Shown here piece after piece: positions 1 through 64,000 of a DNA stretch of 64,000 nucleotides (within the stretch, counting starts at the first letter, position 1; every line of letters begins with the position of its first letter). The stretch comes from Advenella kashmirensis WT001 (GTDB lineage Bacteria; Pseudomonadota; Gammaproteobacteria; Burkholderiales; Burkholderiaceae_B): assembly GCF_000219915.2 (NCBI RefSeq), contig NC_017964.1:2790001-2854000 (forward strand). The letters are read 5' to 3'. Below the pieces are notes generated by a model that saw nothing but the letters and a program-made list of their open reading frames with translations, searched no databases and was not told where the DNA came from. Position numbers and translations under genes: made by a program.

Positions 1-44
1 AGCAAAAGGACGCCGTCGATCTCCTGCCCGCGTTTTCTTCCCAT
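1..44 (-). CDS. truB: tRNA pseudouridine(55) synthase TruB, 5' end only
   Basis: Only the first 14-15 codons lie in the window; the rest is beyond the left edge. The minus-strand ATG at 44 opens a frame reading MGRKRGQEIDGVLLL, which matches the characteristic TruB start (basic residues followed by I-[ND]-G-[VI]-L-L-L). TruB makes pseudouridine 55 in the tRNA T-loop. The start lies 14 bases after the rbfA stop, the usual position at the end of the rimP-nusA-infB-rbfA operon, so it is probably co-transcribed. The call rests on a short peptide plus strong gene-order support. Confidence 0.8.
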   Translation of the reverse strand, partial: MGRKRGQEIDGVLL

Positions 45-58
45 CGCCTGCCCTGATG

Positions 59-469
59 TTACTTGCGATCGTCTTTGGTGTCCGGTAGCGGATCGACGCT
101 TTCCGGATAGTCTTCCGGCCGGTTGGCGCGGTCGATCAGTTGTGTCATTTCAATACCGCGCGCCAGCTGATCGTCATGGAAAAAACGCAGCGTAGGAACA
201 GTGTGGATATGCAACATCTTGAACAACAGGGAATGCAGCCAGCCTGCTTTCTCATTAAGCAGGGCAGCCGCCGTTTCCGGTTCAGCGCCAAGTACGGTGA
301 ACCATACCTTGGCGTGCGCGTAATCGGCCGACAAATCCACGCCTGTCAGAGTAATCAGGCCCGAGCGCGACATATCGAGCTCGCGCTGAATCAGCACTGC
401 CAGATCTTTCTGGATCTGCTCGGCCAGACGGACGTTCCGGTTTGCACCGGAGGATTTATGACGGTTCAT
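59..469 (-). CDS. rbfA: 30S ribosome-binding factor RbfA
   Basis: Small KH-fold protein of 136 residues that binds the pre-30S subunit and helps 16S rRNA 5'-end maturation and cold adaptation. The N-terminal segment [20 protein letters not shown] and the [20 protein letters not shown] strand are typical of the family, as is the later [11 protein letters not shown]. An acidic, proline-rich tail follows. The start is 6 bases after the infB stop and the stop is 14 bases before truB, so it belongs to the rimP-nusA-infB-rbfA-truB operon. The length is normal and the frame is intact. Confidence 0.95.
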
Positions 470-475
470 AATAAT

Positions 476-3459
476 TTACAGTGTGCGGGCAATTTCTTTG
501 ATTTCAAAAATTTCAAGCTGATCGCCAACTTCGATATCGGAATTGCCACGCAAGGTGATACCGCAATCGAAGCCGGACTTGACTTCCTTGACGTCATCCT
601 TGAAGCGCTTGAGAGAATCGAGCGAACCGGTCCAGTGCACCACGTTGTTACGCAACAAGCGCACTTGTGAATCACGACGGACCACGCCTTCGGTGACCAT
701 ACAACCGGCCACTTTACCGATACGGGAAATACTGTAGACCTCGCGGATTTCAACCATACCGATCACTTCTTCACGCTCTTCAGGCGCCAGCATGCCGGAC
801 ATGGCATTGCGAACGTCATCGACCGCATCGTAAATGATGTTGTAGTAACGCACATCAATACCGTTAGTCTCAGCCAGTTTCTTGGTGCTCTGGTCTGCAC
901 GGACATTGAACCCGATCACAACAGCATTGGAGGCAATAGCCAGGTTGATGTCGCTCTCGGTAATGCCGCCGACTGCCGCGTGCACAACCTGGACACGCAC
1001 TTCGTCGGTTGACAGTTTGGTCAGGGACTGCACCAGCGCTTCCTGGGAACCCTGCACGTCGGTCTTGACGATCAGCGACAATGTCTGCATGCCTTCGCCA
1101 ATGTTGTCGAACATGGATTCGAGTTTTGCTGCCTGCTGTCTGGCCAGTTTGACGTCACGGAACTTGCCTTGACGGAACAGCGCGATCTCGCGCGCCTTGC
1201 GCTCGTCAACCAGCACCAGCACCTCGTCACCTGCCTGAGGCACTTCTGTCAGACCCTGGATTTCAACAGGAATAGCCGGACCGGCTTTGGTAATCGGTTT
1301 ACCGTTTTCATCAAGCATGGCACGCACGCGGCCAAAGCTTGCGCCGGCCAGCAATGCATCGCCACGATTGAGCGTACCGCTTTGCACCAGAATGGTGGCC
1401 ACCGGACCGCGACCCTTATCAAGGCGCGCTTCGATCACGATACCCTTGGCTGGTGCGTCTACCGGCGCTTTCAGCTCAAGAATTTCGGCCTGAAGCAACA
1501 CGTTTTCCAGCAATTCATCGATGCCCTTCCCTGTCTTGGCCGAAACCGGCACAAAGGGAACGTCACCGCCATATTCTTCGGGAACCACTTCTTCAGTAAC
1601 CAGTTCCTGCTTAACGCGTTCCGGATTGGCTTCGGGTTTATCGATCTTGTTGACTGCCACAACCATGGGCACACCAGCCGCTTTCGCGTGATGGATCGCC
1701 TCTTTGGTTTGTGGCATCACGCCGTCATCGGCCGCCACAACGAGAATGACAATGTCGGTAGCCTTGGCGCCACGGGCACGCATGGCGGTAAACGCCTCGT
1801 GGCCCGGGGTATCCAGGAACGTCACCATGCCGCCTTCGGTCTGAACGTGGTAGGCACCAATATGTTGCGTAATGCCGCCGGCTTCGCCCGAGGCCACTTT
1901 GGCACGGCGAATGTAATCGAGCAGCGAGGTTTTACCGTGGTCAACGTGACCCATGACAGTCACCACCGGTGCACGTGGCAGCAACTCTGCGTCTGCACCT
2001 GTATCACCGATATCCAGGAACGCTTCGGGATCGTCAAGCTTGGCAGCAATCGCATGATGCCCCAGCTCTTCGACCACAATCATGGCGGTTTCCTGATCCA
2101 GGACCTGATTGATGGTGACCATCTGGCCCAGCTTCATGAGCTCTTTGATCACTTCGGCAGCTTGACAGACATTTTGTGGGCCAGATCGGCCACAGTAATA
2201 GTCTCGGGCACGTGAACTTCACGAGCAATAAATTCGGGTGTAGATGGCTGATTCACCTGTGCGTGCTGGTGCTTATTGCGACCGCGTGATCCACCACGAC
2301 CACCGGAAGAGCGCCAGCCGTCTTCCTTGCCTGCGGGACCGGCGCGTTTTTCAGCAACGGCTTTTTTCCCGCGAGACTGTTCGTCTGACCATTTCTTGTC
2401 TGTTTCAGCAGGCTTGTGCGAGCCAGGAGCAGCAAGGGTTTTGACATCCTTCTTGCCGGCCTTTTTAGTGGCTTCTGCCCCTTCGGCAGTAGGCGTGGCG
2501 CGCAGTACTTTACGCGGCTTGTTCAACATGTCGCGCAGGGCGGCAGCCTCGGCTTCAGCCTGGCGGCGCGCTTCATCGCGACGGGCATCGGCGGCTTCGC
2601 TGCGCGGGGCCACAGGTTTGCGGGCGCCTGTTGCGGCACGCGATGTGTCAGGCTGACGCGGTTTGGTCTGCTCGCTGCGAACCGTTTCAGGCTTGGCCTG
2701 ATCCCGGGTGCCTGGGTTGTGCGCATCGGCAGCGGCCGGCGCACGATCTGTTGCCGACGGATCCGCAGCAGCTTCTGAAGCCGCAGGCGTTGCCGTACTT
2801 TGCGCTGGCTTTGGTTCCGTTGCCTGAGCAGGCGACGCAGCCGCTTGTTCAGTGGCCGTCTGCGCAGTCTCTGCTGGCGCCTGAACAGCTGCAGCTGGCG
2901 CTTTTTGCGTTTCCTGCGATTCCTGTACTTTTTCGCCTGCGGCTGGCTGGGTCGCCTCGGCCTGCGAGGCCGCCGCTTGGCTGGCCGTTGCGGATTCTGG
3001 TGCCGGTACGGAGGCTGGTGCTGGCGACGCTGTCGCTTCAACCGGAGCCGTCGCGGCTACCTGAGTATCGGCAACAACCGGTGCTGCAACCTGCTCAGAA
3101 CCGACAGCTGCGGCAGTCTCGTTTGTTTCAGGTGCATCGGCTGCATCTGACTTGGCCTCAGTGACATCCCGTTTGACGAAGACGCGTTTTTTACGTACTT
3201 CGACCTGAATGGTCCGCGAACGGCCGGAGCCATCCGCCTGACGGATTTCTGATGTTTCGCGACGAGTGACGGTGATTTTTTTTCCATCTTTTGCACCATG
3301 CGCACGACGCAGCGAGTCCAGAAGTTTCGCTTTGTCGCTTTCGGTCACGACATCTTCCACCGATTTCAGATTCACGCCAGCCGAGCGAAGCTGTTCAAGC
3401 AACACATTCGCTGGCATTTTGAGTTCGACGGCAAACTGGTTTACGGTATTACTGGGCAT
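476..3459 (-). CDS. infB: translation initiation factor IF-2 (one frameshift)
   Basis: GTPase that places initiator tRNA on the ribosome. Repaired length is about 994 residues, normal for betaproteobacterial IF-2. The N-terminal part (ATG at 3459, preceded by a GGGAAGAGAG-type ribosome site) has the IF2_N domain ([20 protein letters not shown]) and a long Ala/Gln/Glu/Pro-rich linker. The second part has the G domain with [13 protein letters not shown] and NKID, then the C-terminal beta barrels. The two parts are in different frames. They join at about 2161, where VKLPK-stop should read through as [15 protein letters not shown]. Restoring one base (AAGCTGCC to AAGGCTGCC) repairs it. IF-2 is essential, so this is most likely a sequence error; the downstream ATG need not be a genuine start. 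Confidence 0.93.
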
Positions 3460-3626
3460 TAAGTTCTCTCTTCCCTTACAACGTTTCAATTACTGGCTGA
3501 TGGCCACTGAGCAAAGTGTGAACTTCGTTATTCAGGGCTGGATCGACAAAGCCGCTGGCATAGAGTGCATCGCCTGCACGGTAGCCAACCATGCGACGAT
3601 ACACACTCAACAGTGCTACCCCGCAA

Positions 3627-5111
3627 TCACTTTTCGTCGTCATCAAACCAGTGCGCCCGGGCGCGCATGATAATTTCGCTGGCCTGTTCATCTGTCATAC
3701 CCGTGATTTCAGCCAGTTCGTCGGTCGCAAGTTCGGCCAGATCATCAAGCGTTGCCACGCCGGCGTCGCCCAAAGTGGCAACCAGTTCCGGGGTCATGCC
3801 TTCAAGATCCAGCAAATCCTGCGCTGTTTCAACCCGCTCTTCCTGGGCAATGGCCTCGGTCAGCAGGGCAGTACGTGCGCGGTTGCGCAATTCGTTGACG
3901 GTTTCTTCATCGAAGCCATCAATTTCCAGCAATTCCTGGATAGGGACATAAGCCACTTCTTCCAGTCCGGTAAAGCCTTCATCAATCAGAATATCAGCTA
4001 CCTGTTCATCGACATCCAGGCGCTCCATGAACATGGCGCGCTGGCCTGTGCGCTCTTCCTGCTGGCGATTCTGATTTTCTTCCGGTGTCATGATATTGAT
4101 CTGCCAGCCGGTCAGATCAGAAGCCAGACGCACGTTCTGACCACGCGAACCAATCGCTTTGGGCAGATTTTCGGCGTCGACAACCACATCCATGGCATGC
4201 TTGTCTTCATCTACAACAATGGATTCGACCGCGGCCGGCGCCAATGCGCCGATCACGAATTCGGCCGGTTCGTCGGCCCACAATACGATATCGACCTGCT
4301 CTCCGCCCAGTTCGTTACGAACGGCGGTAACGCGCGAGCCACGCATACCCACGCATGTACCGATGGGGTCAATACGCTTGTCATATGCCACAACTGCAAT
4401 TTTAGCGCGAAGTCCGGGGTCGCGGGCCGCTGCCTTGATTTCAAGCAAACCCTGTTCGATCTCGGGAACTTCATTCTCAAACAGCTCACGGATAAATTCT
4501 GGAGCGGTGCGCGACAGCAGGACCTGCTGCCCTCTTGCCGTACGGTCAACCTTGGCAACCCAGGCGCGAACCCGGTCACCTACGCGCAGATTCTCTTTGG
4601 GAATCATTTCGGAACGAGGCAGGCGCGCTTCAATCTTGCCCGTTTCAATAATGGCGTCACCCTTGTCGAGCCGCTTGATGGTCCCGGAAATAATGGTCTC
4701 GCCACGATCCAGGAAATCGTTCAGCACCTGTTCTCTTTCGGCATCGCGAATTTTCTGGATGATTGCCTGTTTGGCAGCCTGGGCCCCGATACGACCGAAC
4801 TCAATCGGTTCGAGCGGCTCCTCAAGATATTCGCCTTCCTTGATACCAGGCTGAATTTCCTGCGCTTCAGAAAGCAGTTCCTGGCGATCCGGCTCCTGCA
4901 GACCTGCCTCATCAGGCACCACCAACCAGCGTCTGTAGCCCTCATGCGAGCCATTCGAACGATCAATATCGACACGAATATCGGCGTCTTCCTTAAAACG
5001 TTTTTTCATCGCAGAGGCAAGCGCGTTTTCAAGCGCACCAAATACGACCTCACGCGATACGTTTTTTTCACGTGCCAATGCATCTACAAGCAGAAGAATT
5101 TCGCGACTCAT
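3627..5111 (-). CDS. nusA: transcription termination/antitermination protein NusA
   Basis: RNA polymerase-binding factor of 494 residues that modulates pausing, termination and antitermination. Seen in order: an N-terminal polymerase-binding domain ([19 protein letters not shown]), an S1 domain ([29 protein letters not shown]), and KH1/KH2 domains ([35 protein letters not shown]). Two C-terminal helix-hairpin-helix acidic repeats follow ([19 protein letters not shown] and [20 protein letters not shown]). It overlaps the rimP stop by 4 bases (5108-5111), which implies translational coupling. A 167-base gap separates it from infB, with no gene seen there. NusA is known to regulate its own operon, which is relevant to the hairpin before rimP. 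Confidence 0.97.
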
Positions 5112-5595
5112 CGCTTTTTACCCTTGAAATCAAGAACCGGATCCAGCTTTGCTTTTTCGATATCATCGAAAGCAAATTCAATTGTCTGTGTCTCGTTCTT
5201 TTTAATGTCAAATTCCAGACAGAATGTCTCTGTCGGCGCACCATCTGAACTATCTTTATGCCGCAGAATGCCGGTAAATACCTTGCGATTGTCCTGCGGT
5301 TCCCTTAATTTTACTTCCACACGCGCCTGCTGCGCAGCAAACCGATCAAAATCGCGACGCGTGCGCAACGGCCGGTCTACACCCGGAGAGCCCACTTCAA
5401 GCCGCTTATATTCGATGTTTTCCACTTCGAATACGCGCGACAATTGCCGCGACACCTGTTCGCAGTCTTCAATCGTAATCCCGCCCTCGCGGTCGATCGT
5501 GACCCGCAACAGCCCAGTGCAGCCCGTTCGACATCAACGAGTTCAACACCAAGGCCGGCGATTGCCTGTTCGGTAAGTGTGTATAAATCAGTCAT
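5108..5595 (-). CDS. rimP: ribosome maturation factor RimP (one frameshift)
   Basis: RimP (about 162 residues after repair) assists 30S maturation. The ATG at 5595 begins [20 protein letters not shown], a typical RimP start. The frame then breaks at about 5512-5516, within a C/G run, and continues in the next frame as [20 protein letters not shown] and [20 protein letters not shown], the conserved RimP core. One added base gives [17 protein letters not shown]. The stop overlaps the nusA start by 4 bases. There is no Shine-Dalgarno sequence before the ATG: the preceding bases are the T-run of a hairpin (see next entry). The break looks like a sequence error. Confidence 0.88.
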
Positions 5596-5598
5596 ACA

Positions 5599-5626
5599 AT
5601 AAAAAATGGGCCTTTTCCAGCCCATT
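5599..5626 (-). terminator. intrinsic-terminator-like hairpin in the rimP leader
   Basis: On the minus strand AATGGGC pairs with GCCCATT (arms 5620-5626 and 5605-5611) around an 8-base loop, followed by a run of six Ts. The T-run ends only a few bases before the rimP ATG at 5595, in the place of the ribosome-binding site. It could end an upstream transcript or act as an attenuator for the operon that encodes NusA. The structure is seen; the attenuator role is inferred. Confidence 0.65.
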
Positions 5627-6117: not shown

Positions 6118-7777
6118 CTATCGTCCGTTACGATTGCGACCAATAAACCCCAATTGAGATTCATGCGCAGACGGGCCGGACGGCTGCCATTCATCACGAC
6201 TACGCGATGACGCCTGGCGGGTATTGGAGCGCCCGCCGGCATTACCGCCGCGTCCGCCGCCTTTGCCATTACGAGGCTGCTCGCTCTTGTCGGCCTGCCG
6301 CGCGCCGTTGCGACCTTCGCCACGCCCCTCAGTTGGTCCGCTCTGACGTCGGTTATTGTATAACCCGGTACCAGCACGACCCTGACGGGGCGCGCCAGCG
6401 CCAGGCGCGGCGGTCCCTGGGCGGCCATTACCATTACCACGCCCGTGCGCCGAACGCCCGCCCGGCGCATGAGATCGCACCTTGACCGGCGTCTCAAAAC
6501 CCGGAGGCATGGCATTATCGTGGGAAATAGGCTGGCGCGGCCGGCGATGATCTGAGCTGTCTTCCTCTTTGACCAATCCGGTCTGGATCATCAACGCCGT
6601 GACCAGCGCCGGATCCAGCTCTTCCCAGCGACCGCGCTTCAGATTGCGAGGCAGCACGATGTCGCCAAAACGGGTGCGAATCAAGCGACTGACCGTCACA
6701 CCCACAGCCTCGAACATGCGTCGCACTTCACGATTGCGACCTTCCTGCAACGTAACCCGGAACCAGCGGTTACTCCCTTCGCCACCAATAAATTCCATAC
6801 TGGTAAAGGATGCTGCGCCATCTTCCAGCACAATGCCGGTAACCAGGCTTTCACGCTGAGCGTCCGTCATCTCTCCCAGCACACGCACCGCATACTCGCG
6901 TTCGTTACCAAACCGCGGATGCATGAACCGGTGCGCCAGATCGCCCGAAGTGGTAAATATCAGCAACCCTTCGGTATTCAAGTCCAGCCGGCCTACAGAA
7001 ATCCACTTGCCAGTGCGCATTTTGGGCAAACGCGAAAACACAGATGCACGACCTTCGGGATCGTCATGACTGACAATTTCTCCGGCAGGTTTGTGATACA
7101 GGATAACGCGCGGCGGACGCTTGGCATTGGGCCGCATCACCAACTGGCCATTTACCCGAACCTGATCCTGCGACCCGACTCGCTGGCCAATGTGAGCAGG
7201 CTCACCATTGACCGACACGCGACCGGCGATAATCAACTCCTCCATATCCCGACGTGAACCGACACCGGCATCCGCCAATACTTTATGCAGCTTGGGATTG
7301 ACGGCATCGCTATTGAGAATCTTGTTCAGTTTCTGCTCAAGACGCGCAGTGCCATCAAGATAAGCCAGCGCCTGATCCGCATCCTGCTCATCCTGGGCCG
7401 CGGTAAAGGGGCTGCCCACCTGCTCCTGGCGTTCCGGACGTGCCTGAGGCGTACGCCCCTTGCCGCCGGGGCCCTGCGCCCGGCGCACGACGCGGGCGCG
7501 GCTGCGCTTTCTTGACTGGCGCAGCACTCACTTCGGCCGCCACTTCGAGCTGCTCGGTTTTTTCCACCACCGCATCGGCGCGACGGCGACGAAACGGCGT
7601 GCGCAACTTGCGCCCCTTGCCTTTCTGACGCGCATCGGCCTCAGGTGCCGCACCGGTCAGGTCGGCTCCCTGAATCGTAATTACTCTGGTGACAGAATCA
7701 TTGTCGTATTCGTTTGAACGGTTTGAACGCGTTTCATTTGAATTATTTTCCGCATCAACGTGATCCGAACTATTCAT
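6118..7777 (-). CDS. rluB: 23S rRNA pseudouridine(2605) synthase RluB-type (one frameshift)
   Basis: RsuA/RluB-family pseudouridine synthase. The conserved core has the S4 RNA-binding domain ([20 protein letters not shown]), then [20 protein letters not shown] with the catalytic Asp in GRLDLNTEG, and the [15 protein letters not shown] motif. It carries long low-complexity tails: a basic, Pro/Arg/Ala-rich N-terminal extension starting at the ATG at 7777 and a Gly/Arg/Asn-rich C-terminal extension of about 140 residues. The N-terminal extension and the core are in different frames, changing over somewhere in 7440-7500 within a GC-rich stretch. Frame arithmetic requires one extra base or two missing bases here, unlike most breaks in this window. 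It lies 21 bases downstream of scpB and is probably co-transcribed with it. Confidence 0.85.
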
Positions 7778-9665: not shown

Positions 9666-10888
9666 ATGGCTACAGTAGATATTGACCTTACAAATCAAGG
9701 CGTCGGAATAATAGATCAAAGCGACTATGACGGCGATACAGTATTAAATGTTCTTTCGGATGGCTATTCGGTTCTGGATGTTCGTAATGAGAACGGGCCA
9801 ACAGGCGATGTTCTCGAGGTTCAATATACCTACGTGACTCAGGATGTTGACCATGATTTTTTGCATTTATACGAAAATTCACATGTCAAGTTGTTGTCTC
9901 CCATCAATCAGGCTGAAAATTTTTCTCATGGTTTCCAAGTGGACGATAATGCAACACTGGAAATTTCCAATGAATTTCTCTCCAGCATGCCCGCTGGACA
10001 AGAATACGTTATTGAAGGCGCTGGTGACACAATCATTGATGCGACCGGCCTGGACGTAAGTACGCTCAATATCCAGTACGGCCCGTCCGAATATAGTCAC
10101 TTGTCATTCGTGGGCGCCGATTACGTAGAATACGATCAACTCTTAGGCACATCACTGGTCTTCAAGGATTATCAGGCAACATTGTCGGAGAGGTGAGTTT
10201 AAGAGGCCAAATGCTTAGCCCCAATCAGCCACTATATATTGACCCTGCCAAGTTTCAGATTAACGGTGGCACCGTTTATTACGCCTGCTATCTGAAAGGC
10301 ACTCATATTGCAACGCCAGTTGGTGAAACTAGAATCGAAAGCCTCAAGGCGGGCGATCAAGTTTTGACAGCTGGCGGCGGAACGGCCACCGTGAAATGGA
10401 TCGGATACCGAACCCTGTTCAAAAAGCGCATTCCGGAACAAGATGCGAAACGAGCTTTCCCTATCCTATTTAAGAAAGGCTGTATCGCCGACAACGTGCC
10501 GCATTGCGACCTGGTCATGTCTCCGGGCCATCACGTTTTCTTTGATGGCTACTTGGTGCCGGCTATGGCCCTGGAGAACGGCATTTCAATTGCGCAGCAG
10601 TTCGACATGCAATCGTTCCAGTATTTCCATGTGGAGCTCGAGCAGTTCGACATCCTGCTGGCCGAAGGTATGCCCGCTGAATCGTACGTCGATACGGGTA
10701 ACCGCAGGATGTTTCAGAACGCACATCACGTCGCAATGAATCCAGATTTCGGACCCGCAACTGGCCGACCTGACATACCCGGCATCACGTTGATTCGCAA
10801 AGGTCCAGTACTGGAAGGGATTCGTGCAAAACTACTTGAGCGCGCCAATTGGATGCAAGTTCCAAAAGGACAAAAGCGAGCTGGGTAA
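9666..10888 (+). CDS. Hint (hedgehog/intein) domain protein (one frameshift)
   Basis: Repaired length is about 407 residues. An AGGATAGGTGAG ribosome site precedes the ATG at 9666. The first roughly 190 residues are acidic and beta-rich, without recognised domains. At residue about 208 a Hint_2-type domain begins at YYACYLKGTHIATP, with IESLKAGDQVLTAGGGTATV, KWIGYR, the His block SPGHHVFFDGYLVPA and a C-terminal AHHVAMNPDF. Hint domains are autoprocessing modules with a nucleophilic Cys, here in ACYLKG. The two halves are in different frames. Restoring a G at about 10174 (CAGGCAAC to CAGGGCAAC) gives a continuous DYQGNIVGEVSLRGQML. No signal peptide is obvious. The upstream DNA is AT-rich, which hints at acquisition. 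The substrate and role are unknown. Confidence 0.8.
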
Positions 10889-11676: not shown

Positions 11677-14338
11677 ATGAACGATTTCAGCCTTGCCTAT
11701 AACCCCCGGCACTTGAGCTCAGGAACAGACGACGATGACCCGCTTGAAACCGAGGAATGGTGTGATGCCCTTGCCTCTGTAACCGCCGCGTCGGGGCCTG
11801 CCAGAGCCAAGCATCTGCTCAATGTCCTGCTCGATACAAGTCGCGATCTGAACATTCCCTGGCAACCCGCTATCGGAACGCCCTATATCAATACGATACC
11901 GGCAAATAAACAGGAGCCCTTTCCTGGCAATCTGGAAATCGAAGAAAAACTGGCGTCCATTATGCGATGGAATGCGCTGGCCATGGTGGTGCGCGCAAAT
12001 GGTCAGTTTGCCGATCTGGGCGGCCATATTGCCAGTTACGCCAGCGCCGCTGATTTGTTTGAAGTCGGCTTTAATCACTTCTTTCGCGCTCCCCAAGACG
12101 GTGTGGCAAGTGATCTTGTCTTTTTTCAGCCCCATTCCTCACCGGGTGTTTATGCACGCGCTTTCCTGGAAGGCCGGCTGGATGAGCAAAATCTATTGCA
12201 CTATCGGCAGGAAATAAAAGCAAAACGCGCAGGCGTCATGGGCCTGTCCAGCTACCCTCACCCATGGCTGATGCCCGATTTCTGGCAATTTCCCACAGGA
12301 TCCATGGGCATTGGCCCGATCAGCTCGATTTACCATGCCCGGTTTATGCGCTATCTGCAGCACAGGGCCTTCAGAACACTGAAGGCCGCACCGTGTGGGG
12401 CGTATTCAGTGATGGCGAGATGGATGAACCAGAAAGCATGAGCGCCCTGACCCTGGCCGCCAGAGAGCGGCTGGACAATCTTGTCTGGGTTGTCAATTGC
12501 AACCTGCAAAGACTGGACGGCCCGGTCAGAGGCAACGGAAGGATTATCGACGAGCTGGAAATGCTGTTCAAAGGCGCCGGCTGGCACGTGATCAAACTGG
12601 TGTGGGGTTCAGACTGGGACGCATTGCTGGCGCGTGACGACGAAAAGGCGTTGCAAAAAATCTTTGCTGAAACGGTAGACGGGCAATTTCAAACTTTTGC
12701 CGCCAAGGACGGGCGTTACAACCGTGAGCATTTTTTTGGGCAGAATCCGCAGTTGAAAAAACTGGCCGACGCGCTCAGTGACGAACAGATTGATATGCTC
12801 AAACGCGGTGGCCATGATCTGGTGAAAATCCACGCAGCTTATAAAGCGGCCGCCAATCACCCAGGACAGCCGACCGTCATTCTGGCCCAAACGAAAAAAG
12901 GGTTTGGAATGGGCGATACCGGCCAGGGGAAAATGACCACGCATCAGCAAAAAAAATTAACGAAGGAAGCGCTTCTGGCCTTCCGAGACCGTTTCCACCT
13001 GCCCTTGACAGACACGCAGACCGAAAATCTTGAATTTTACAAACCCGACAGCGCTTGCGCGGAGATGCGCTATCTACAGGAACGTAGAAAAGCGTTGGGT
13101 GGCAGCATGATGAACCGTAACCAGGCCGCCCCGCCGTTACCTGTACCAGCTATTGAGCTCTATGGACAATTTGCCATCAAAGCCAACGACAAGGTGATGT
13201 CCACCACCATGGCATTTGTGCGAATGCTTGGCGGCTTGCTGAAGGATAGCAAGCTAGGCAAGCATGTGGTTCCCATCGTTGCGGACGAGGCCCGCACATT
13301 TGGCATGGCCAATCTGTTCAAACAGGTAGGAATTTACGCAAGTGCTGGCCAGCAGTATGAACCCGAAGATATCGATTCGATCCTCAGCTACCGCGAAGCC
13401 AAGGATGGGCAGATTCTGGAAGAAGGGATCAGCGAAGCGGGCGCAATCAGCTCGTGGGTAGCGGCTGCAACCAGTTATTCGGTGCACGGGATATCCATGC
13501 TGCCGTTTTACATTTTTTACTCCATGTTCGGGTTTCAGCGGATAGGAGATCTGATCTGGGCGGCCGCGACCAGCGAGCCAGGGGCTTTCTGCTCGGGGCC
13601 ACTGCCGGACGAACCACGCTTGGCGGCGAAGGCCTGCAACACCAGGACGGCAGCAGCCAGCTTATCGCGTCGACCATACCGAATTGCCGGGCATATGACC
13701 CCGCCTTCGCTTTTGAAGTTGCCGTCATCCTTGACCATGGCATGCACGAGATGCTCGTTGAGCAGAAAGATGTTTTCTATTACCTGTCCCTGATGAATGA
13801 AAACTATGCGCAACCTACTCAGCCGGAGGGCGTGGAAAGCGGCATTATCAAAGGCATGTATCCGTTTTCTGAACAGAACGTCGATAAACCTCGTGCAACA
13901 GTGAAACTGCTGGGTTCCGGCGCCATTTTTCCTGAAGTGCTGGCAGCCGCACAGTTACTGGCCCAGGACTGGAATATCGAGAGTGACATATGGAGTGTTA
14001 CCAGTTTTACCGAATTGGCAAGAGAAGCCAGGCAGGCTGAGCGATGGACCCGCTTGCACCCGGATCAGCCTGCACGGACGGGCTATGTGGCCGACTGCAT
14101 CAACGGTGATATTCCGGTAATTGCTGCTACGGATTATGTGCGGGCATTGCCGCAACTTATTGCGTCATATATACAATGCCCATACACCGTGCTTGGTACC
14201 GATGGCTTCGGTCGCAGCGACACGCGCGCCAGGCTCCGGGAATTTTTTGAGGTCGACAAATTTTCAATTGTGATTGCTGCGCTCAATGCGCTTGCGCAAC
14301 AGGGAAAATTAGCAGAACACTGTGCGCCGAGGCACTGA
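11677..14338 (+). CDS. AceE-type 2-oxo acid dehydrogenase E1 component (two frameshifts)
   Basis: Homodimeric ThDP-dependent E1 of the pyruvate dehydrogenase AceE family. The repaired length is 887 residues. A GGAG ribosome site precedes the ATG at 11677. Conserved blocks include GGHIASYASAADLFEVGFNH, SDGEMDEPES followed by VVNCNLQRLDGPV, and TLGGEGLQHQDG. Two single-base losses break it: at about 12369 (AGGGGCC read as AGGGCC) and about 13577 (AGCCGAGCC read as AGCGAGCC). The canonical ThDP motif is GDG...NN, but here the first Gly is Ser (AGT codon). No E2 or E3 gene is adjacent, so this is likely an accessory paralogue, perhaps for another 2-oxo acid such as 2-oxobutyrate (as MdeB), under the divergent Lrp regulator. 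That substrate is inferred. Confidence 0.87.
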
Positions 14339-14479
14339 CACGCTATCAGATCAGCGTAACCGATCAGCGCCCTGGGAGTGTTAAGGAAAATCAGAAATTT
14401 CCGAAATTGCAGCCTTTACCCCTGCCGGACTGACCCCAATTAGCTAGAATGTGACATTAGCTCCATTTTGGCCCAATAC

Positions 14480-15110
14480 ATGACATACGCGGTAAAAGAA
14501 ATCTTCAAGACGCTGCAAGGCGAAGGGGCGCAAGCGGCCGCGCGGCCGTCTTCTGCCGGTTCGCCGGATGCAACTTATGGTCTGGGCGCGAGATTGATCG
14601 TGCTACTGCGGCCTGTACGTTTTGCGACACCGATTTTGTTGGGACCAACGGCATCGGCGGTGGTAAGTTTGCCAGCGCGGCTACCCTGGCCACGACGCTG
14701 GCCAAAACCTGGGGCCCGAACGCAGTTCGCGCTATGTTGTATTTACCGGCGGCGAACCGCTGCTGCAGCTGGATGTCGCTCTTATCGACGCGGTCCATGC
14801 CGAAGGCTTCGAGATTGCCATAGAAACCAATGGCACGCTGGCCGCACCGGCGGGAATCGACTGGATCTGTGTGAGCCCGAAGGGCAACAATCCACTGGTT
14901 CAAACGCAAGGCGACGAACTGAAACTTGTCTTTCTGCAATCTGATGCCCCGCCTGAGCGCTTTGAAGCCCTGGATTTTTCGCATTTTTTCCTGCAGCCCA
15001 TGGACGGGCCGGGTCGCCTGGCCGCCACTGAACACGCGGTGCAGTACTGCATGGATCATCCCAAGTGGCGCCTGAGCGTGCAAACTCATAAATATATAGG
15101 CATTCCATGA
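14480..15110 (+). CDS. queE: 7-carboxy-7-deazaguanine synthase QueE (two frameshifts)
   Basis: Radical SAM enzyme that converts 6-carboxytetrahydropterin to 7-carboxy-7-deazaguanine in queuosine synthesis. The repaired length is about 210 residues. The start MTYAVKEIFKTLQGEGAQ, then the iron-sulfur Cys set FCRFAGCNLW and CTFCDTDFVG, then VVFTGGEPLLQLD and IAIETNGTLAAPAGIDWICV, are all family signatures. They lie in three frames. Adding one G at about 14536 (GCGGCCGC to GCGGGCCGC) and one base at about 14731 (CGCGCTATG) joins them. The stop overlaps the queD start (ATGA), so the pair is translationally coupled. The ATG at 14480 is chosen because homologues start there; no good ribosome site precedes it. 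Confidence 0.87.
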
Positions 15111-19030: not shown

Positions 19031-19059
19031 TCAGCAATTTAGTCATCAAGGAAAACAAC

Positions 19060-24973: not shown

Positions 24974-25093
24974 GATAAAAAATTCGTTTGCTCCGACGGC
25001 CATGAGTAAAAGCCTGGGCGTGCGAGCCACATACAGTCAGCATCGGTAGGCGTGCGCTTGGGACCGATATGTTGCTTGGTATGAAATCAAATT

Positions 25094-31108: not shown

Positions 31109-31151
31109 ACAAGGAGTCTGAAGTGGTGGTAGCAATAAACGGTGGTATGCA

Positions 31152-37403: not shown

Positions 37404-37426
37404 CGATAGAAAACACTGTAAAATCA

Positions 37427-43032: not shown

Positions 43033-43084
43033 GATCAGATGGGTTAGTTGGCAGATCAGTTAGCGCTTACGCCCAGTTTGGTAA

Positions 43085-50296: not shown

Positions 50297-51174
50297 TATT
50301 TCACCTTCTGTTTCGGGTCCAGCATATCACGAACACCGTCGCCCACAAGATTGAAACCGATGGCGGTGATCAGGATCGCCACGCCGGGAAATGTGGAATA
50401 CCACCATTGATCCAGCAGAAAATTACGGCCCGAGGCGATCATGGCCCCCCATTCGGCGGTAGGCTGCTGGGCGCCCAAACCGATAAACCCGAGTGCGGCG
50501 GCCATGAGAATCGCATTGCCGATATCCAGCGTCATTTGCACAATCACCGGCGGCAATGCATTGCGCAAGACATGCCAGCGCACGATATGTCTTCGACCCG
50601 CGCCAAATGTTTTAGCCGCCTGGACATAAGCCATCTCGCGAATGCTCAGCGTCTGGCCGCGTGCCAGCCGCACATAATAGGGAATACGCACAATCGTAAT
50701 CGCAATCATCGCATTGAACAGGCTTGGCCCCAAGGCCGCGGCCAGTGCCATCGTCAGTACCAGCGATGGGACCGACAGCACGATATCCATTGTGCGCATA
50801 ATGATCGTATCTACGGTTCGGCCAATGACACCGGAAAAGCAGCCAATCACCGAACCGATAGCACTGGCAACGAACGCAACGAAAATACCGACGCCAATAG
50901 ATTGACGCGCACCATACAGTACCCGGCTGAACAGATCCCTACCGACTTCGTCAGTCCCGAAAAAATGAGCAGCCGATGGCGGCAGCAGCCGACTGCCCAG
51001 ATCAATGGCATTCGGATCATGCGCGGTCAGCAATGGCGCCAGAATTGCGGCAAGACACATGAGGATAATTAGCAGCAGCCCGAGCAGCATCATGGGGCTG
51101 CGGCGCAGTTGATACCAGAAATAAGCGAGCGAATAGGACAGTTGCGAAGTTGTGGTAGTGTTGGCGGTGCTCAT
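50296..51174 (-). CDS. ddpC: D,D-dipeptide ABC transporter permease DdpC
   Basis: DppC-type permease of about 292 residues from the ATG at 51174 (MSTANTTTTSQLSYSLAYFW). It has an N-terminal OppC_N segment (MMLLGLLLIILMCLAAILAP) and HFFGTDEVGRDLFSRVLYGA. Five further membrane helices and the EAA loop follow (VQAAKTFGAGRRHIVRWHVL). LGFIGLGAQQPTAEWGAMIA is typical of the family. The longer open frame upstream overlaps ddpB and lacks family features. Confidence 0.93.
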   Translation of the reverse strand: MSTANTTTTSQLSYSLAYFWYQLRRSPMMLLGLLLIILMCLAAILAPLLTAHDPNAIDLGSRLLPPSAAHFFGTDEVGRDLFSRVLYGARQSIGVGIFVAFVASAIGSVIGCFSGVIGRTVDTIIMRTMDIVLSVPSLVLTMALAAALGPSLFNAMIAITIVRIPYYVRLARGQTLSIREMAYVQAAKTFGAGRRHIVRWHVLRNALPPVIVQMTLDIGNAILMAAALGFIGLGAQQPTAEWGAMIASGRNFLLDQWWYSTFPGVAILITAIGFNLVGDGVRDMLDPKQKVK

Positions 51175-52186
51175 CAGCTGCATCCTTGATACGTGGGTCC
51201 AGCACGCTGTACAGCAGATCAACCAGCATATTGAGCAGGACATAGACAAACGAGACCAGCACCGCGAACCCCATGACTGCCGGAAAATCCAGTGCCTGGA
51301 TGGATTCGACCACATACAGACCCATGCCGGGCCAGCCAAAGACCGTCTCGGTCAGCACGGCACCGTATAACAGATCACCCATGGCCAGACCCAGTACGGT
51401 CACAGACGGAATCAGCGCATTGGGTAGTGCATGGCCCAGGATAATTTTCCAGCGACCCAGTCCATAGGCCTGGGCGGTACGCACATAATCCTCGGACAGT
51501 TGCTCCAGCATGGAAGAGCGGATCTGCCGGGCCACCACGCCCAGATGGACGAAGCTCAGGGTAAAGGCCGGCAGCACCAGGTGTTCAACGGTGCTGGAAA
51601 ACAAATCCCAGTCTCCGGCAATAAGCGAATCAATCAGAAAAAAACCAGTCACGGTTGGTGGATCACCCAGCAGGCTGTCGATACGCCCGCCTGAAGGAAA
51701 CCAGGACAAATGGCCATAGAAAATAATCAGCAAGCCCAGCCCCAGCCAGAATGCCGGCATGGAAATACCCGTCACGGCCAGGGTGCGCGCCAGCTGATCG
51801 ACCCAGGAGTTTTTGTACACGGCTGACAAAACGCCCAGTGGAATGCCAATCAGCATGGAAAAGACCAGCGCCACAATGGCCAGCTCCAGGGTCGCCGGGA
51901 AAAATGCGAGCAGATCGTCGACAACCGGGCGGCCTGTGCGAATGGATGTACCCAGGTCCCCGTGCAACAAACCTTTGAGGTAGACCCAGTACTGCTCGTA
52001 AAGCGGCAGATCCAGCCCAAGCTTTTGCCGGATGCCGGCCACGATTTCTTCGGTCGCCCGATCTCCGGCAATCAGCCGTGCCGGGTCGCCGGGAATCAGA
52101 TGAGACACGATGAAAGTGATCACTGATACGCCCAGCATGACCAGAATGAGCCAGGGCAGGCGCTTACACAATATCTGGAAAAACAA
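51017..52186 (-). CDS. ddpB: D,D-dipeptide ABC transporter permease DdpB (3' end probably frameshifted)
   Basis: DppB-type permease. The N-terminus is LPWLILVMLGVSVITFIVSH with LIPGDPARLIAGDRATEEIV; six membrane helices follow, with the EAA loop DYVRTAQAYGLGRWKIILGH and a final LVDLLYSVLDPRIKD. As written the frame runs about 155 bases into ddpC with non-family sequence (389 residues in all). Restoring one base just before 51176 would end the protein at a TGATG overlapping the ddpC start and give 337 residues, the normal DppB length. I take the real end to be 51174. Confidence 0.9.
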   Translation of the reverse strand: MFFQILCKRLPWLILVMLGVSVITFIVSHLIPGDPARLIAGDRATEEIVAGIRQKLGLDLPLYEQYWVYLKGLLHGDLGTSIRTGRPVVDDLLAFFPATLELAIVALVFSMLIGIPLGVLSAVYKNSWVDQLARTLAVTGISMPAFWLGLGLLIIFYGHLSWFPSGGRIDSLLGDPPTVTGFFLIDSLIAGDWDLFSSTVEHLVLPAFTLSFVHLGVVARQIRSSMLEQLSEDYVRTAQAYGLGRWKIILGHALPNALIPSVTVLGLAMGDLLYGAVLTETVFGWPGMGLYVVESIQALDFPAVMGFAVLVSFVYVLLNMLVDLLYSVLDPRIKDAADEHRQHYHNFATVLFARLFLVSTAPQPHDAARAAANYPHVSCRNSGAIADRA

Positions 52187-52509
52187 AACAGGCCCTTTCG
52201 GAATGGGTGGCGGCGTCTTGTTGCAGGCAAGACCGCTACTTCACCCGGTTAAATCAACCCACAACAATCGCGCTTGCCACGACAAAGCTGCGCAAGTGGC
52301 TGTTTTTTGCAAAATAACCGCAAGGCACGCACGGCATCACGCTGGGGCTGGTCATTGTCAACACGGCAGCCGCATCTCCTATGATTGAAAAAAAACGATA
52401 TGTTGCCAGTTGTTGATACGGTGGCCATTGCCGGGGGGTTTTATAGCGCTGCTGGCAACGCCAATGGCAGGCCGGGCGCCACATGCGCCCCCGGCATTAC
52501 CTGTTCTGG
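52187..52509. other. ddpA-ddpB spacer
   Basis: A 323-base gap inside the ddp operon with no gene. It contains the hairpin at 52471-52495 and a second, looser inverted pair (GCCATTG near 52423 with CAATGGC near 52462). Such spacers after binding-protein genes often lower expression of the downstream permease genes. Confidence 0.55.
52471..52495 (-). terminator. GC-rich hairpin after ddpA, possible attenuator
   Basis: GCCGGGCGC and GCGCCCCCGGC pair with a 2-base bulge around a 5-base loop, 15 bases past the ddpA stop. No T-run follows, so it is better read as a processing or attenuation hairpin than as a full terminator. Confidence 0.5.
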
Positions 52510-56459: not shown

Positions 56460-57550
56460 TTAAAGTTTCACCGACAATCGTCTTTCAGACTCAAGGTACT
56501 CCCTGGACTGCATTTCGGTAATACGGGAGACGGTCCGATGAAATTCGTTGGCCAGCACTCCTTCGGTATACAGTTCCTCGGGAGGCATTCGGCCGACATG
56601 ATCAGCTTGACATGGTGATCATACAGGACATCAATCAGCCAGGTAAAACGCCGGGCCTCGGACGAGTGCCGGGGCATCATGCGGGGCACGTCGGAAAGGA
56701 TGATTGTCTGATAGCGATTGGCCAGTTCCAGATAGTCATTTTGCGAGCGCGGCCCGCCGCAAAGCTGCGCAAAACTGAACCATACCACCGATCCGGCGAC
56801 CGCCACAGCCCGGATGACCCGGTTCTCGATATGCAGATCCGTGTCCTGGGGCGCCGTTTCGGCCAGGCTGTCAAACGCCTGCTGCAACTGTGCCCGGGTA
56901 TCCTCATTGAGCGGCGTCAGGTACATGCGCACCTGCTCCAGCGTCCGTTGACGATAATCGACGCCCGTGTCTACATTGACTACATCCATGCGTTTCTGAA
57001 TCAGAGCGATGGCAGGCAGGATCCGGTCACGGTGCAAGCCATCGGGATACAGCGTCGATGGCTCATAATTGGAAGTCATGACAAAGCTGGTGCCATTATC
57101 AAACAGGTTAAGCAGCAGCTTGTATAAAATCATGGCATCTGCAATATCCGAGACGTGGAACTCATCAAAACAGATCAGCTTGTACTTATCGCTGATGATG
57201 CGCGCCACTTCGTCCAGCGGATCACTCTTGCCGCGCAGCGCCTGCAATTGGTGGTGCACGCTGCGCATGAACTCATGAAAGTGAATCCGCGTCTTGTGCT
57301 CGATCTGTACCGTCATGAAAAAAGAATCCATCAGAAAGCTTTTGCCGCGGCCAACCCCGCCCCACATGTAGACGCCGCGCGGCGGCTCGGGCTTGCGGAA
57401 AAATCGTCGAAACGGTTTACTCAATTCCTGTTGATAGGCAACCAGTTCGTCGGCAAAAACCTGCAGGCGCGCAATGGCCCGCTGCTGAGCGTCATCGGCA
57501 CGATAGCCGCGCTCAGCAAGGGTCTTTTCGTAATATTGCAGTACGTTCAT
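56460..57550 (-). CDS. zapE: cell division protein ZapE (AFG1-family ATPase; one frameshift)
   Basis: P-loop ATPase that interacts with FtsZ at constriction. The repaired length is about 363 residues. The N-terminus is [20 protein letters not shown], Walker A is [20 protein letters not shown], and the Walker B region [20 protein letters not shown] is typical. The last 50 residues shift frame at about 56586 (TGCCTCCCGAGG for TGCCCTCCCGAGG). The correct end continues [20 protein letters not shown] and stops at 56460. The uncorrected frame runs a similar length, so the break is easily missed. It lies downstream of lpd, the usual place in this family. Confidence 0.92.
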
Positions 57551-59284: not shown

Positions 59285-60521
59285 TTACAGTTCCAGCAGC
59301 AGGCGTTGCGGATCTTCCAGCGCCTCTTTCATGGCGACCAGACCCAGCACTGCTTCGCGGCCGTCAATGATACGGTGATCGTATGACATGGCCAGGAAGT
59401 TGATCGGACGGATGACCACCTGACCATTTTCTACCACAGGACGATCCTTGGTGGCATGTACGCCCAGGATGGCAGACTGCGGTGGGTTAATGATGGGGGT
59501 GGACAGCATGGAACCGAAGACACCACCGTTGGAAATGGAGAAGGTGCCGCCAGTGAGATCTTCCAGGCTGATTTTACCTTCGCGCGCTTTAACACCGTAA
59601 TCAGCAATGGTTTTTTCGATTTCAGCAAAAGACAGCTGGTCTGCATTGCGCACAATGGGCACTACCAGGCCGCGTGGGCTGCTGACCGCGATACCGATAT
59701 CGAAGTAACCGTGATAGATGATATCTTTGCCATCAACAGAGGCGTTAAGCAATGGATATTTTTTCAGTGCGGCAACCGCTGCCTTGACGAAAAAGGACAT
59801 GAAGCCCAGTTTCACACCGTGCTCTTTTTCAAAGCGATCTTTGTAGGCATTGCGCAGATCAATCACGGCCTTCATGTTGACTTCGTTGAAAGTCGTAAGA
59901 ATGGCGTTTTCCTGCTGAGACTGGATCAGCGCTCGGCAATACGCGCACGCAGACGAGTCATAGGCACGCGCTGTTCCGGACGGCCGTCCAGAGACAGGCT
60001 GGCTGGGGCGGCAGCGGCGGCAGGCGCTGCCGGTTTGGCAGATGCGGCATCGGCCTTGGTCACACGACCGTCACGACCAGAGCCCTCTACATCGCCTGCA
60101 GCGATGCCTTTTTCAGACAGGATTTTGCTGGCCGCGGGCGATGCAACACCTGCACTGCCTTTGCTGGCTTCTGCTGCTTTGGCAGGCGCCGCTTCAGCTT
60201 TGGCCGGGGCCGCCTCGGCTTGGCAGGCTCGGCAGCAGGAGCAGCGGCCGCAGCTTCAGGCGCAGCGGCACCGGACTTGGCCTCAGTGTCAATCTTTGCC
60301 AGCAACTGGCCTGAAGTGACCGTGCTGCCATCGCCCTGGGCGATTTCAGTTAGCACGCCACTGGCCGGTGCCGGCACTTCCAGAACGACCTTGTCGGTTT
60401 CGACTTCGATCAGGGTTTCATCCTGAGTTACAGCTTCGCCTACTTTCTTTTTCCACTCAAGCAGGGACGCCTCTGAGATCGATTCGGAGAGCTGAGGAAC
60501 TACAACGTCAATAATAGCCAT
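59285..60521 (-). CDS. odhB: dihydrolipoyl succinyltransferase, E2 of 2-oxoglutarate dehydrogenase (two frameshifts)
   Basis: SucB/OdhB, about 412 residues after repair. The lipoyl domain ([20 protein letters not shown] to [20 protein letters not shown], lipoyl Lys in ETDKVV) is in the first frame. An Ala/Pro/Lys-rich linker and the E3-binding domain ([20 protein letters not shown]) follow in another. The catalytic domain ([40 protein letters not shown], active-site [14 protein letters not shown]) is in the third stretch. Breaks are at about 60220 (AAGCCGAGG) and about 59930 (GAGCGCTGATC for GAGCGGCTGATC or similar). An essential-type enzyme broken twice points to sequence error. It lies 33 bases after odhA. 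Confidence 0.9.
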
Positions 60522-60554: not shown

Positions 60555-63427
60555 TTACTTGGTCAGAATGAACCCTTTGAGCTTGGGTGCAAAAGCCTGT
60601 TCCACCAAGGCTTTTTGCTGCTCAATATGTTTGGCCATATAGCCAACCGCAGGCGAGGACGAAGCGATACGTCCGGCATAACCCAGGCGCTGTCCGGAAG
60701 ACATGTCTTCATACAGGTGGTGCTGGATATAGAACCATGGTCCCTGATTCTGGGGCTCGTCCTGTACCCATACGACTTCCGTCGCATTCGGATACTTGGC
60801 CAGTTCACTGGCAAACGACTTGTGTGCAAACGGATACAGCTGCTCTACCCGCAGGATCGCAACATGACTGGCTTCCCGTTCCTTGCGTGCGTTCATCAGA
60901 TCATAGTAAACCTTGCCTGAGCACACCAGTACGCGCTTGACTTTCTTGCCGTCAAGGTTGCTGTCCATGTCGCCCAGGATAGGGTGGAACTCGCCGGAGG
61001 CCAGATCGCTCAGCGGCGAGGTTGCATCCTTGTTACGCAACAGCGATTTCGGCGTAAAGATCACCAGCGGCTTGCGGAACGGCCGAATCATCTGGCGGCG
61101 CAGCAGATGGAAAATCTGTGCGGCATTCGTGGGCTGTACACATTGCATGTTATGGTCGGCGCACAGTTGCAGGAAGCGTTCGATACGTGCCGAAGAGTGC
61201 TCTGGGCCCTGACCTTCGTAGCCATGCGGCAGCATTAGTGTCAGACCGGACTGGCGTCCCCATTTGGCTTCGCCTGAACTGATGAACTGGTCAATCACGA
61301 CCTGCGCACCGTTGACGAAATCGCCGAACTGCGCTTCCCAGATAACCAGGGTGTTGGGCTCGGAGCAGGAATAGCCGTACTCAAAACCCAGCACCGCCTC
61401 TTCCGAGAGCACCGAATCGATGACCGTGAATGGCGCCTGGGAATCGGAGACATTCTGCAGTGGAATATAGGTGCCATCGTTCCAGCGTTCGCGTTTTTGA
61501 TCATGCAATACCGCATGGCGGTGCGTGAAGGTGCCGCGGCCGGAATCCTGACCGGTAATACGGATGGTATAGCCAGATGCCACCAGCGTTGCAAACGCCA
61601 GGTGCTCGCCCATGCCCCAGTCCAGGTTCTGCTCGCCCATTGCCATTGCGCGGCGGTCGGCCAGCAGTTTTTTCACCAGATTGTGGGGCGTAAAGGTGTC
61701 TGGCACAGTAGTAATGCGCTCGCCAATACGCTTGAGTTCGGCCAGTGGCACGGCCGTATCGGCACTGTCTGTCCACTTGGCGCCCAGAAACGGTGTCCAG
61801 TCGATAGAATATTTGTTTTTGTAGTCGGTCAGAACGGGTTCGACGGTTTTCTGGCCGTCTTCCATCAGCCGGCGATAATTCTTGACGAACTCTTCGCCTT
61901 CACCATCAGCCAATACGCCCTGCGTGGTCAGTTTGTCGGCATAGATTTTGCGCGTGCCAGGGTGCGCACCAATGCTCTTGTACATCAGTGGCTGCGTCAG
62001 CGACGGCGTATCCTGCTCGTTATGCCCCAGTTTACGGTAGCAGATGATATCCACGACCACGTCGTGGTTGAACTCCATGCGGTAGTCCAGCGCCAGGCGC
62101 GTTGCGAACACCACGGCTTCAGGGTCATCGGCATTCACGTGAAAGACCGGTGCTTCGATCATTTTGACCACATCGGTACAGTAAAGCGTTGAACGTGAGT
62201 CGCGCGGGTCAGATGTGGTAAAGCCGATCTGGTTATTGATCACGATATGCAGCGTACCGCCAGTGCCGTAACCACGTGTCTGCGCCATGTTAAGCGTTTC
62301 CATGACCACGCCCTGGCCGGCAAAGGCCGCATCGCCGTGCACCAGCACGGGCAATACTTGCTGCCCCAAAGGATCGGCGCGGCGTTCCTGACGCCCGCAC
62401 ACTGCCTTCCACAACCGGATTAACAATTTCCAGATGCGAGGGGTTAAATGCCAGGGAAAGGTGAACCGGACCACCGCGGGTGGACAGGTCACTGGAAAAA
62501 CCGTTGTGATATTTCACATCGCCATCGGTCAGGCCTTCGGCATGCTTGCCTTCAAACTCGGCAAACAGGTCGCCGGGCATTTTGCCCATGATATTGACCA
62601 GCATGTTCAGGCGGCCACGGTGAGCCATGCCCACGATAATTTCCTGAACGCCCAGATCACCGGCGTGATTGACAACCTCGTCCATCGCGGCGATAAAGCT
62701 CTCGCCGCCCTCGAGTGAAAAGCGCTTCTGGCCTACATATTTGGTGTGCAGAAAACGCTCCAGCCCTTCGGCTTCGGTCAGTTGCTGCAGAATGCGTTTC
62801 TTGGTATCGCCATCAAAAGAGCCGTTGGCATGGGTAGACTCCAGGCGTTCCTGGACCCAGCGCTTGGCCTTGGGATCGGACATGTGCATGAACTCGGCGC
62901 CAACAGCACCGCAATAGGTATCACGCAGGGAATTGAGAATTTCACGCAGGGTCATGGTGCCCTGTTTGGTGAAATAGGTGTTAGTGGCAGAGTACACCTG
63001 ATCCAGATCGGCCTCGGTCAGACCGTAAAAGGCGGGATCGAGTTCCGGAATTTCAGGGCGTTCGCGGCGTTTCAACGGATCAAGCTCGGCCCAGCGCACC
63101 CCAAGGGTGCGATAGGCAGCGATTAATGACTGGACATGAAGCTGTTTGCTGGCCACCTCCAGGGTGGGCGCGCCTCCCCTGGCAGCTGGGCAAAGGCATT
63201 GGCCTTGGCGCGCTGGGCAAAGGAAGTAACAACAGAATAATGGCTCTGGTCCCGGGTACTTTGGGAGCAGTCTGTGGCAGGTGCGTGCTGAAGCTGATCG
63301 AAATAGTCACGCCAGTGGTCCCCCACGGCAGCCGGGTTGGCCAGGTACTCTTCGTACAGTTCTTCAACGTAGGGAGCATTACTCCCAAATAAATAAGAGG
63401 TAGATTTTTTTCAGTTTCCGTTGTCAT
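60555..63427 (-). CDS. odhA: 2-oxoglutarate dehydrogenase E1 component (three frameshifts)
   Basis: ThDP-dependent SucA/OdhA, about 957 residues after repair. The ATG at 63427 (GGTGAAG upstream) begins MTTETEK and, after repair, SYLFGSNAPYVEELYEEYLA. Later blocks are EIIVGMAHRGRLNMLVNIMG, LSLAFNPSHLEIVNPVVEGS, VLVHGDAAFAGQGVVMETLN and HIVINNQIGFTTSDP. RFLQLCADHNMQCVQPTNAA and PSSP-type SSSPAVGYMAKHI mark the C-terminus. Breaks are at 63406-63412 (a 7-T run on the plus strand, 8 expected), about 63166 (CGCCCACCC for CGCCCCACCC) and about 62393, where frame arithmetic needs +1 or -2 bases (GTGCGGGCGTCAGG). It starts the odhA-odhB-lpd operon. Confidence 0.92.
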
Positions 63428-63526
63428 AAATCGCTTCACCGTTGCGGGTGTTTCACCCTTTGAGATGCAGGTATACCTTCCGGGTTACGGCTAGACCGAG
63501 TTGCGGATAGCGGGCAGAAGGCACAT

Positions 63527-63555
63527 AACATAGCCTTGATAGCCAATGCATTCAA
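63527..63555 (-). promoter_or_regulatory. promoter of the odhA-odhB-lpd operon
   Basis: On the minus strand TTGAAT (63555-63550) and TATGTT (63532-63527) are separated by exactly 17 bases. The start of transcription would be near 63520, giving a leader of about 90 bases before the odhA ATG at 63427. Confidence 0.6.
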
Positions 63556-64000
63556 GTATAACCATCGGGAGGGGTTAATCCAAGGAACTTTTTCGATTAT
63601 GAAAGAAATTACCGGTTTCAATCGATTGTGCTTGGTATATTTCGATAATTCGTTGCTAACGACCCACGCCACAAGACCCGCTGCATGAATGCGGCCATCG
63701 GTTTGGCCGCAAGTGTTCGACAAAGCCCAAAGGCAAACCGACGGCTGACCGCTTTGGTTGAACAGGCTCGCCTGACCAAGGCGGTCAAAGCATCCCGGCC
63801 GCCGCAGCCTCGATTGATAATCGCCAGCGCCCTGCCGCTGACTGGCGGCTAACCATAAGCCGCGCCACTGCGCCGAGCACGCCAACAGAAACCGCCAATG
63901 CCCCACATGCAGATCGTAGCGGTCACGGCCTGCAGCCGCAGGGGCCAAGTTCCCGCCGCAACGCCGGCAACGGCGTTATCATATCGAAACTGCGATTCAA
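63556..64000. other. right-end region without recognisable gene
   Basis: About 445 bases upstream of the odhA promoter. A minus-strand open frame crosses it (63436-63948), and another enters from the right edge with a hydrophobic stretch (VTATICMWGIGGFCW) before a stop at about 63853. Neither resembles a family I know. They could be the degraded or frameshifted 3' end of a membrane protein gene that lies mostly outside the window. Confidence 0.4.

Follow-up and report, generated by a model that had tools for sequence, protein, structure and literature searches.

The genome of the soil bacterium Tetrathiobacter kashmirensis WT001, now Advenella kashmirensis, was described by Ghosh et al. in 2013 (PMC3669393), whose available passages report sequencing on the Ion Torrent Personal Genome Machine (PGM; 316 chip, 37x), assembly with MIRA, scaffolding with SOLiD mate pairs and gap filling with capillary reads; SOLiD reads (SRX247703, 10.2 Gb) and PGM reads (SRX249067) are deposited. 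These passages count 578 pseudogenes among 4,452 coding sequences (CDSs), list gyrase B, an RNA polymerase beta subunit and primase as pseudogenised, and treat the frameshifts as real mutations, sequencing errors being judged very unlikely. From this follows the thesis of 'genome implosion', in which repair failure sets a free-living bacterium on the way to host confinement as a 'pathogen in the making'. Here, we examine 64,000 nucleotides of the WT001 chromosome (NC_017964.1, positions 2,790,001 to 2,854,000; the window), in which many genes are broken by single-base losses, together with larger samples of the same chromosome. The breaks are very probably consensus errors of the PGM assembly and not mutations.

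Error in this record is well explained and is already suspected in print. Passages of a 2019 survey of 2,307 proteobacterial proteomes (PMC6403173) flag 925 frameshifts in WT001, place it beside a genome tied to an error-prone method, and suspect sequence error behind many frameshifts. The announcement of the Illumina genome of strain W13003, in the part at hand, gives 33 pseudogenes in 4,507 CDSs. For PGM data, passages of Bragg et al. 2013 (PMC3623719) describe recurrent indels at about 1 per 1,000-2,000 bp, frequent enough to be taken for polymorphisms. Their strand-asymmetric class consists mainly of lost C or G bases, 82% of them within runs of 2-3, and a motif is suspected; in this class deletions outnumber insertions in 9 of 9 200-bp sequencing runs. 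Strand-specific deletions in PGM data also appear in passages of PMC3431227, but the GGC motif is tied there to MiSeq. Among the titles and abstract openings searched, none disputes the implosion claim and none names an AGGGC error motif.

The WT001 assembly comprises 4,423,879 bases in 2 contigs, a chromosome of 4,365,995 and a plasmid of 57,884. Two chromosomal regions, together about 15% of the chromosome, were compared with relatives: region 1 (364 kb, 2790001-3154000), which includes the window, and region 2 (280 kb, 1840001-2120000), where the sign of the GC skew is opposite. The relatives are A. incenata (G003), the sister of WT001, strains FME57 (G008), S44 (G007) and W13003 (G004), and G006, probably A. 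mimigardefordensis; the best six of 80 related loci are Advenella. G006 and S44 sit on longer branches, as do S44 and W13003 in the window counts. W13003 likewise bears the name A. kashmirensis. Its aligned identity with WT001 in the window is only about 81%, and its genome announcement, as far as available, puts the average nucleotide identity at 78.7%; the two are therefore not one species.

The comparison with close relatives, which the preliminary description of the window had proposed, reveals a large excess of frame-breaking indels in WT001. An alignment of four genomes covers 201,262 coding bases of region 1. There, 86 such indels are unique to WT001 (79 one-base deletions, 2 two-base deletions, 4 one-base insertions and 1 two-base insertion), or 4.27 per 10 kb by the strict rule, and 4, all one-base deletions, to the sister. 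Unique substitutions are similar on the two branches (4,237 in WT001, 3,676 in the sister), and scaled to them the difference gives a Fisher p = 9e-19. The longer-branched G006 and S44 carry 36 and 43 frame-breaking events in coding DNA, with about as many insertions as deletions, and their non-coding rates are far higher. In region 2 (162,281 sites), one-base deletions and insertions number 53 and 4 in WT001, 4 and 7 in the sister, 6 and 7 in FME57, and 32 and 30 in S44. Within the window, lineage-specific indels amount to 17 in WT001, 1 in the sister, none in FME57 or G006, 11 in S44 and 19 in W13003, the last two mixing insertions and deletions.

In WT001 the breaks fit a Poisson process. 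Over 279 genes defined in S44, 154 breaks hit 114 genes of WT001, or 1 per 1,995 bp, and 22 hit 18 genes of the sister; G006 has 16 in 12 genes and FME57 7 in 7, each of these covering one region only. A Poisson model by gene length expects 166.1 unbroken genes and 31.7 genes with at least 2 breaks, where 165 and 33 are observed. By gene quarter the breaks number 56, 38, 32 and 28; over-long gene predictions may lie behind the first-quarter excess (p = 0.002), and the other quarters do not differ from one another (p = 0.46). The non-coding rate in WT001 equals the coding rate, an equality that is a weak point because it comes from just 5 non-coding events, matched by the sister. Extrapolated at the observed rate, the whole chromosome would hold about 2,200 such sites.

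Selection leaves little trace on where the breaks fall. In the most, middle and least constrained thirds of genes, WT001 has 4.78, 4.44 and 5.88 breaks per 10 kb, against 0.29, 0.57 and 1.34 in the sister, and 37 of 93 most constrained genes are broken compared with 39 of 93 least constrained. Among 489 genes defined in the sister, 181 of them broken, codon positions 1 and 2 take 0.241 of the WT001-branch substitutions in the broken genes and 0.229 in the intact ones; on the sister branch the same genes give 0.238 and 0.236. The codon-position mix excludes long-standing decay; very recent decay is still compatible with it. Accumulating stop codons, which the preliminary description had named as a sign of genuine loss, show no excess in a symmetric test over the 279 genes (8 in WT001, 8 in the sister, most of them near gene starts or in one gene).

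Five further genes, gyrB, rpoB, dnaG, mutS and mutL, were chosen because PMC3669393 names them or their kind, and are thus a non-random sample. The gyrB open frame has 486 residues in WT001 and 839-875 in five relatives; rpoB, dnaG and mutL lie in two pieces each and mutS in three, all being whole in four relatives. These gene searches turned up no further, intact copy of rpoB, dnaG, mutS or mutL in WT001; its second gyrase-B-family match, which every relative has too, is taken as parE. A cell with genuine breaks in infB, which is broken in the window, rpoB, gyrB and dnaG would not grow.

The sequence context of the losses is narrow. Of 84 one-base deletions, 52 fall in a G-run of at least two (2-5) followed by C on either strand, which bears out the recurrent GGC- and CAGGGC-type contexts noted at the outset; 52 of the 79 coding one-base deletions lie within G/C runs of 2-3 (23 and 29, respectively). 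The commonest context is AGGGC, where a base is lost at about 3.7% of sites (17 of ~463), as compared with about 0.5% for CGGGC and 0.8% for TGGGC. With exposures scaled from counts in the sister, GG loses a base 22 times in ~9,801 before C and once in ~9,419 before A or T (p = 6e-6), and GGG 27 times in ~1,999 before C and 4 times in ~1,905 before A or T (p = 4e-5). Under a looser rule in both regions, 116 of 228 deletions have the G-run-plus-C form, with A before the run 56 times against 26.6 expected. The A/T runs of at least four are nearly spared (1 deletion in ~1,615 coding runs). Homopolymer undercalling, as originally proposed, thus has to be narrowed; as a generic process it is ruled out as the whole story by the near-spared A/T runs and by the effect of the base after the G-run.

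The deletions were also counted by strand, as suggested earlier. The G-run lies on the sense strand in 33 of 73 cases (37.9 expected, p = 0.29; 8 of 81 deletions outside predicted genes excluded), so no gene-strand effect was found. A replichore strand effect was apparent at first, the first event set giving 33 of 52 against 22.6 expected in region 1 (p = 0.005) and 13 of 29 against 16.2 in region 2 (p = 0.26). It was not reproduced by further events, which gave a reversed 3 of 17 against 7.8 expected in region 1 (p = 0.03) and 9 of 20 against 11.6 in region 2. The orientation or class label differed between methods at 6 of 53 region 2 sites.

The errors could have arisen as follows. The PGM produces single-base indels that recur across many reads of one run, so that read depth fails to remove them. 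In WT001 the dominant form is that a G-run of at least two followed by C is one base short, on either strand and most strongly in AGGGC. Such recurrent indels would then be carried into the consensus, the SOLiD reads being described for scaffolding and not for polishing. The reads of the WT001 run presumably carry these errors, and since the errors would be recurrent, inspection of the PGM reads may have failed to expose them.

In the window itself, proteins predicted from genes of FME57, the sister, G006 or S44 were compared with the unchanged DNA by tblastn for 46 genes of at least 95 residues. Fifteen of the 46, with 22 frame switches between them, are spread over two or more frames: infB, rimP, rluB, the E1 paralogue, queE, the gene called cupin, the MFS pump, the dehalogenase, the FemAB-like gene, rluD, Bug (TctC), zapE, lpd, odhB and odhA. 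The lpd switch falls inside the first 24 residues, ahead of the start of the lipoamide-dehydrogenase profile at residue 30; it is therefore probably a start-site effect and lpd was left uncounted. Under the strictest rule, which demands an identical indel against every covering relative and excludes gene edges, 14 sites, spread over 12 of 51 genes, remain. They comprise 13 one-base deletions and a single two-base deletion and include no insertion, and 10 of them lie in a G-run followed by C. The preliminary description had placed breaks in 17 genes at about 24 places; 15 of the 17 are firm, the Hint gene and ddpB being weak. NCBIfam and Pfam served to check the gene names, in most cases through the intact copies of the relatives, and the 17 genes are as follows.

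476..3507, minus strand: infB (translation initiation factor IF-2), broken, two frames; orthologue TIGR00487.
5108..5625, minus strand: rimP, broken, two frames; orthologue NF000929.
6118..7777, minus strand: rluB, broken, two frames; orthologue NF007976.
9666..10888, plus strand: Hint-domain gene, probably broken (weak); the second open frame matches PF13403.
11677..14384, plus strand: E1 (pyruvate/2-oxoglutarate dehydrogenase) paralogue, broken, three frame switches; orthologue TIGR03186/TIGR00759.
14468..15110, plus strand: queE, broken, two frame switches; orthologue TIGR04508.
19027..19928, plus strand: gene previously called a cupin, broken, two frames.
23449..25003, minus strand: MFS transporter gene, broken, two frame switches; orthologue matches efflux MFS models below cut-offs.
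28355..29094, plus strand: haloacid dehalogenase type II gene, broken, two frames; orthologue TIGR01428.
30024..31309, minus strand: COG0523/CobW GTPase gene, broken, two frames; orthologue PF02492.
31152..32334, plus strand: FemAB-like gene, broken, two frame switches; orthologue PF04339.
36439..37427, minus strand: rluD, broken, two frames; orthologue matches RluA/RluD models.
43044..44022, minus strand: Bug (TctC) solute-binding gene, broken, two frames; orthologue PF03401.
51174..52230, minus strand: dipeptide-type ABC permease (previously ddpB), broken near its start (weak); orthologue N-terminus unaligned.
56460..57550, minus strand: zapE, broken, two frames; orthologue NF040713.
59285..60521, minus strand: odhB (2-oxoglutarate dehydrogenase E2), broken, two frame switches; orthologue NF004309.
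60555..63439, minus strand: odhA (2-oxoglutarate dehydrogenase E1), broken, two frame switches; orthologue NF006914.

Against a single distant homologue of 544 residues, the Hint gene aligns in two frames, one piece at 70% and the other at 25% identity. In ddpB the unaligned part is only the first 11 of 352 orthologue residues, and all 3 covering relatives differ there. The COG0523/CobW gene lies outside the 46-gene set, and its open frame approximates the length of the orthologue merely by chance. For the gene called cupin, the name was not confirmed; an open frame that overlaps it had no Pfam match. At one odhA site, WT001 differs by two bases from 5 of 5 relatives. An intact odhA copy from the same strain was not found among the best 120 of 7,998 hits of a protein search; the best full-length homologues listed there differ from the window pieces at 16 (P0001) and 14 (P0002) residues, and are therefore taken as other strains or species.

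The stretch around the Hint gene (window 9150-11060) is unaligned to the fetched relatives at this place, the 544-residue homologue sits elsewhere in G006, and no plasmid match was found for this stretch. The orthologue of the E1 paralogue scores above the cut-offs of both the NCBIfam exception model 'AKGDH_not_PDH' (TIGR03186) and aceE. At window 26882-28087 lies an open gene whose FME57 orthologue is weakly like the trimeric autotransporter YadA (66 bits, cut-off 750).

We favour consensus error over mutation because the breaks follow Poisson spacing with low dependence on constraint, little sign of relaxed selection and no nonsense excess in the symmetric test, because essential genes are broken in the record and intact in the relatives, and because the platform was the PGM. 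The preliminary judgement that the breaks are an artefact and not gene decay is upheld on these grounds. The published view, that repair genes broke first in a repair-deficient mutator and frameshifts then swept the genome as real and recent pseudogenisation, appears very unlikely. At face value it fits the record, itself in question, in which mutS and mutL are themselves broken (WT001 chromosome 2970666-2973239 and 1431572-1433265), and it can draw on the claim of high read accuracy and site inspection in PMC3669393 and on the initial strand bias in one region. That bias, however, was not reproduced; essential rpoB, gyrB, dnaG and infB are broken too, and the indels come with neither a nonsense excess in the symmetric test nor a comparable excess of substitutions. 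Mismatch-repair mutators produce both insertions and deletions, favour long runs and act increasingly with run length. This pattern is not seen in WT001, where nearly all events are deletions, most of them in short G-runs before C, and A/T runs of at least four are nearly spared. We give just as little credence to a reading in which some (A)GGGC deletions are real, made by a context-specific minus-one mutator (mutS and mutL being broken) that would differ from ordinary mismatch-repair mutators; the sequenced culture would then have mixed intact and deleted copies, which could give essential genes a broken appearance.

It is also very unlikely that the errors stem from the MIRA consensus, the scaffolding or the gap filling instead of PGM chemistry. 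The consensus caller does determine which recurrent indels survive, and deletion orientation is locally clustered; the breaks, however, follow sequence context and are spread throughout both sampled regions rather than at a few joins. Programmed ribosomal frameshifting across many genes, which the preliminary description had dismissed, is close to inconceivable: essential genes are affected and would need rescue if the deletions were real, but the relatives encode the same proteins in a single frame, and the breaks occur at Poisson density over unrelated genes.

Several observations weigh against consensus error in PGM reads. The authors of PMC3669393, in the passages available, re-inspected inactivating positions in the read data and claimed high read accuracy. 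The same passages list no plasmid pseudogenes, where ~8 would be expected at 578 per 4,452 CDSs and ~6.7 deletions from the hot contexts alone. Apart from short matches, a megablast of 2 of 3 plasmid pieces gave a single related stretch, a few kb long, and the 2,718 plasmid bases aligned to relatives are too few for judging the deletion rate. In the passages of PMC3623719, the strand-asymmetric class makes up only 7.4% of testable sites, and recurrent insertions exceed deletions in 8 of 9 200-bp runs, while insertions are nearly absent in WT001 (79 deletions, 4 insertions). Change at codon positions 1 and 2 is slightly higher in broken than in intact genes. In frames defined in the sister, a test biased towards it, 23 stops are unique to WT001 (14 in broken and 9 in intact genes), many of them near gene ends. 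Finally, the orientation of G-run-plus-C deletions is locally clustered over the two regions (29 runs, P = 0.0045), which gene strand does not explain.

If the breaks are consensus errors, this part of the evidence for 'genome implosion', the 578 pseudogenes given in the passages of PMC3669393, falls, and gene counts, coding density and surveys that use the WT001 record are misled. The results also offer a sharper error model for other early PGM genomes, in which a G-run followed by C matters and not run length as such.

With respect to known systems, the WT001 breaks resemble the PGM indels described in the passages of PMC3623719 in being single-base and of similar density and, like the strand-asymmetric class there, mostly C or G deletions in runs of 2-3. 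In contrast to those indels, they stand in a finished consensus, include hardly any insertions and show an (A)GGGC context. The survey in PMC6403173 shares the suspicion about the frameshifts, and its available passages name neither a platform nor an error context for WT001 and give no test of neutrality. PMC3669393, as far as its passages go, describes the same genome and the same functionally indiscriminate frameshifts; they are read there as real, whereas errors are favoured here.

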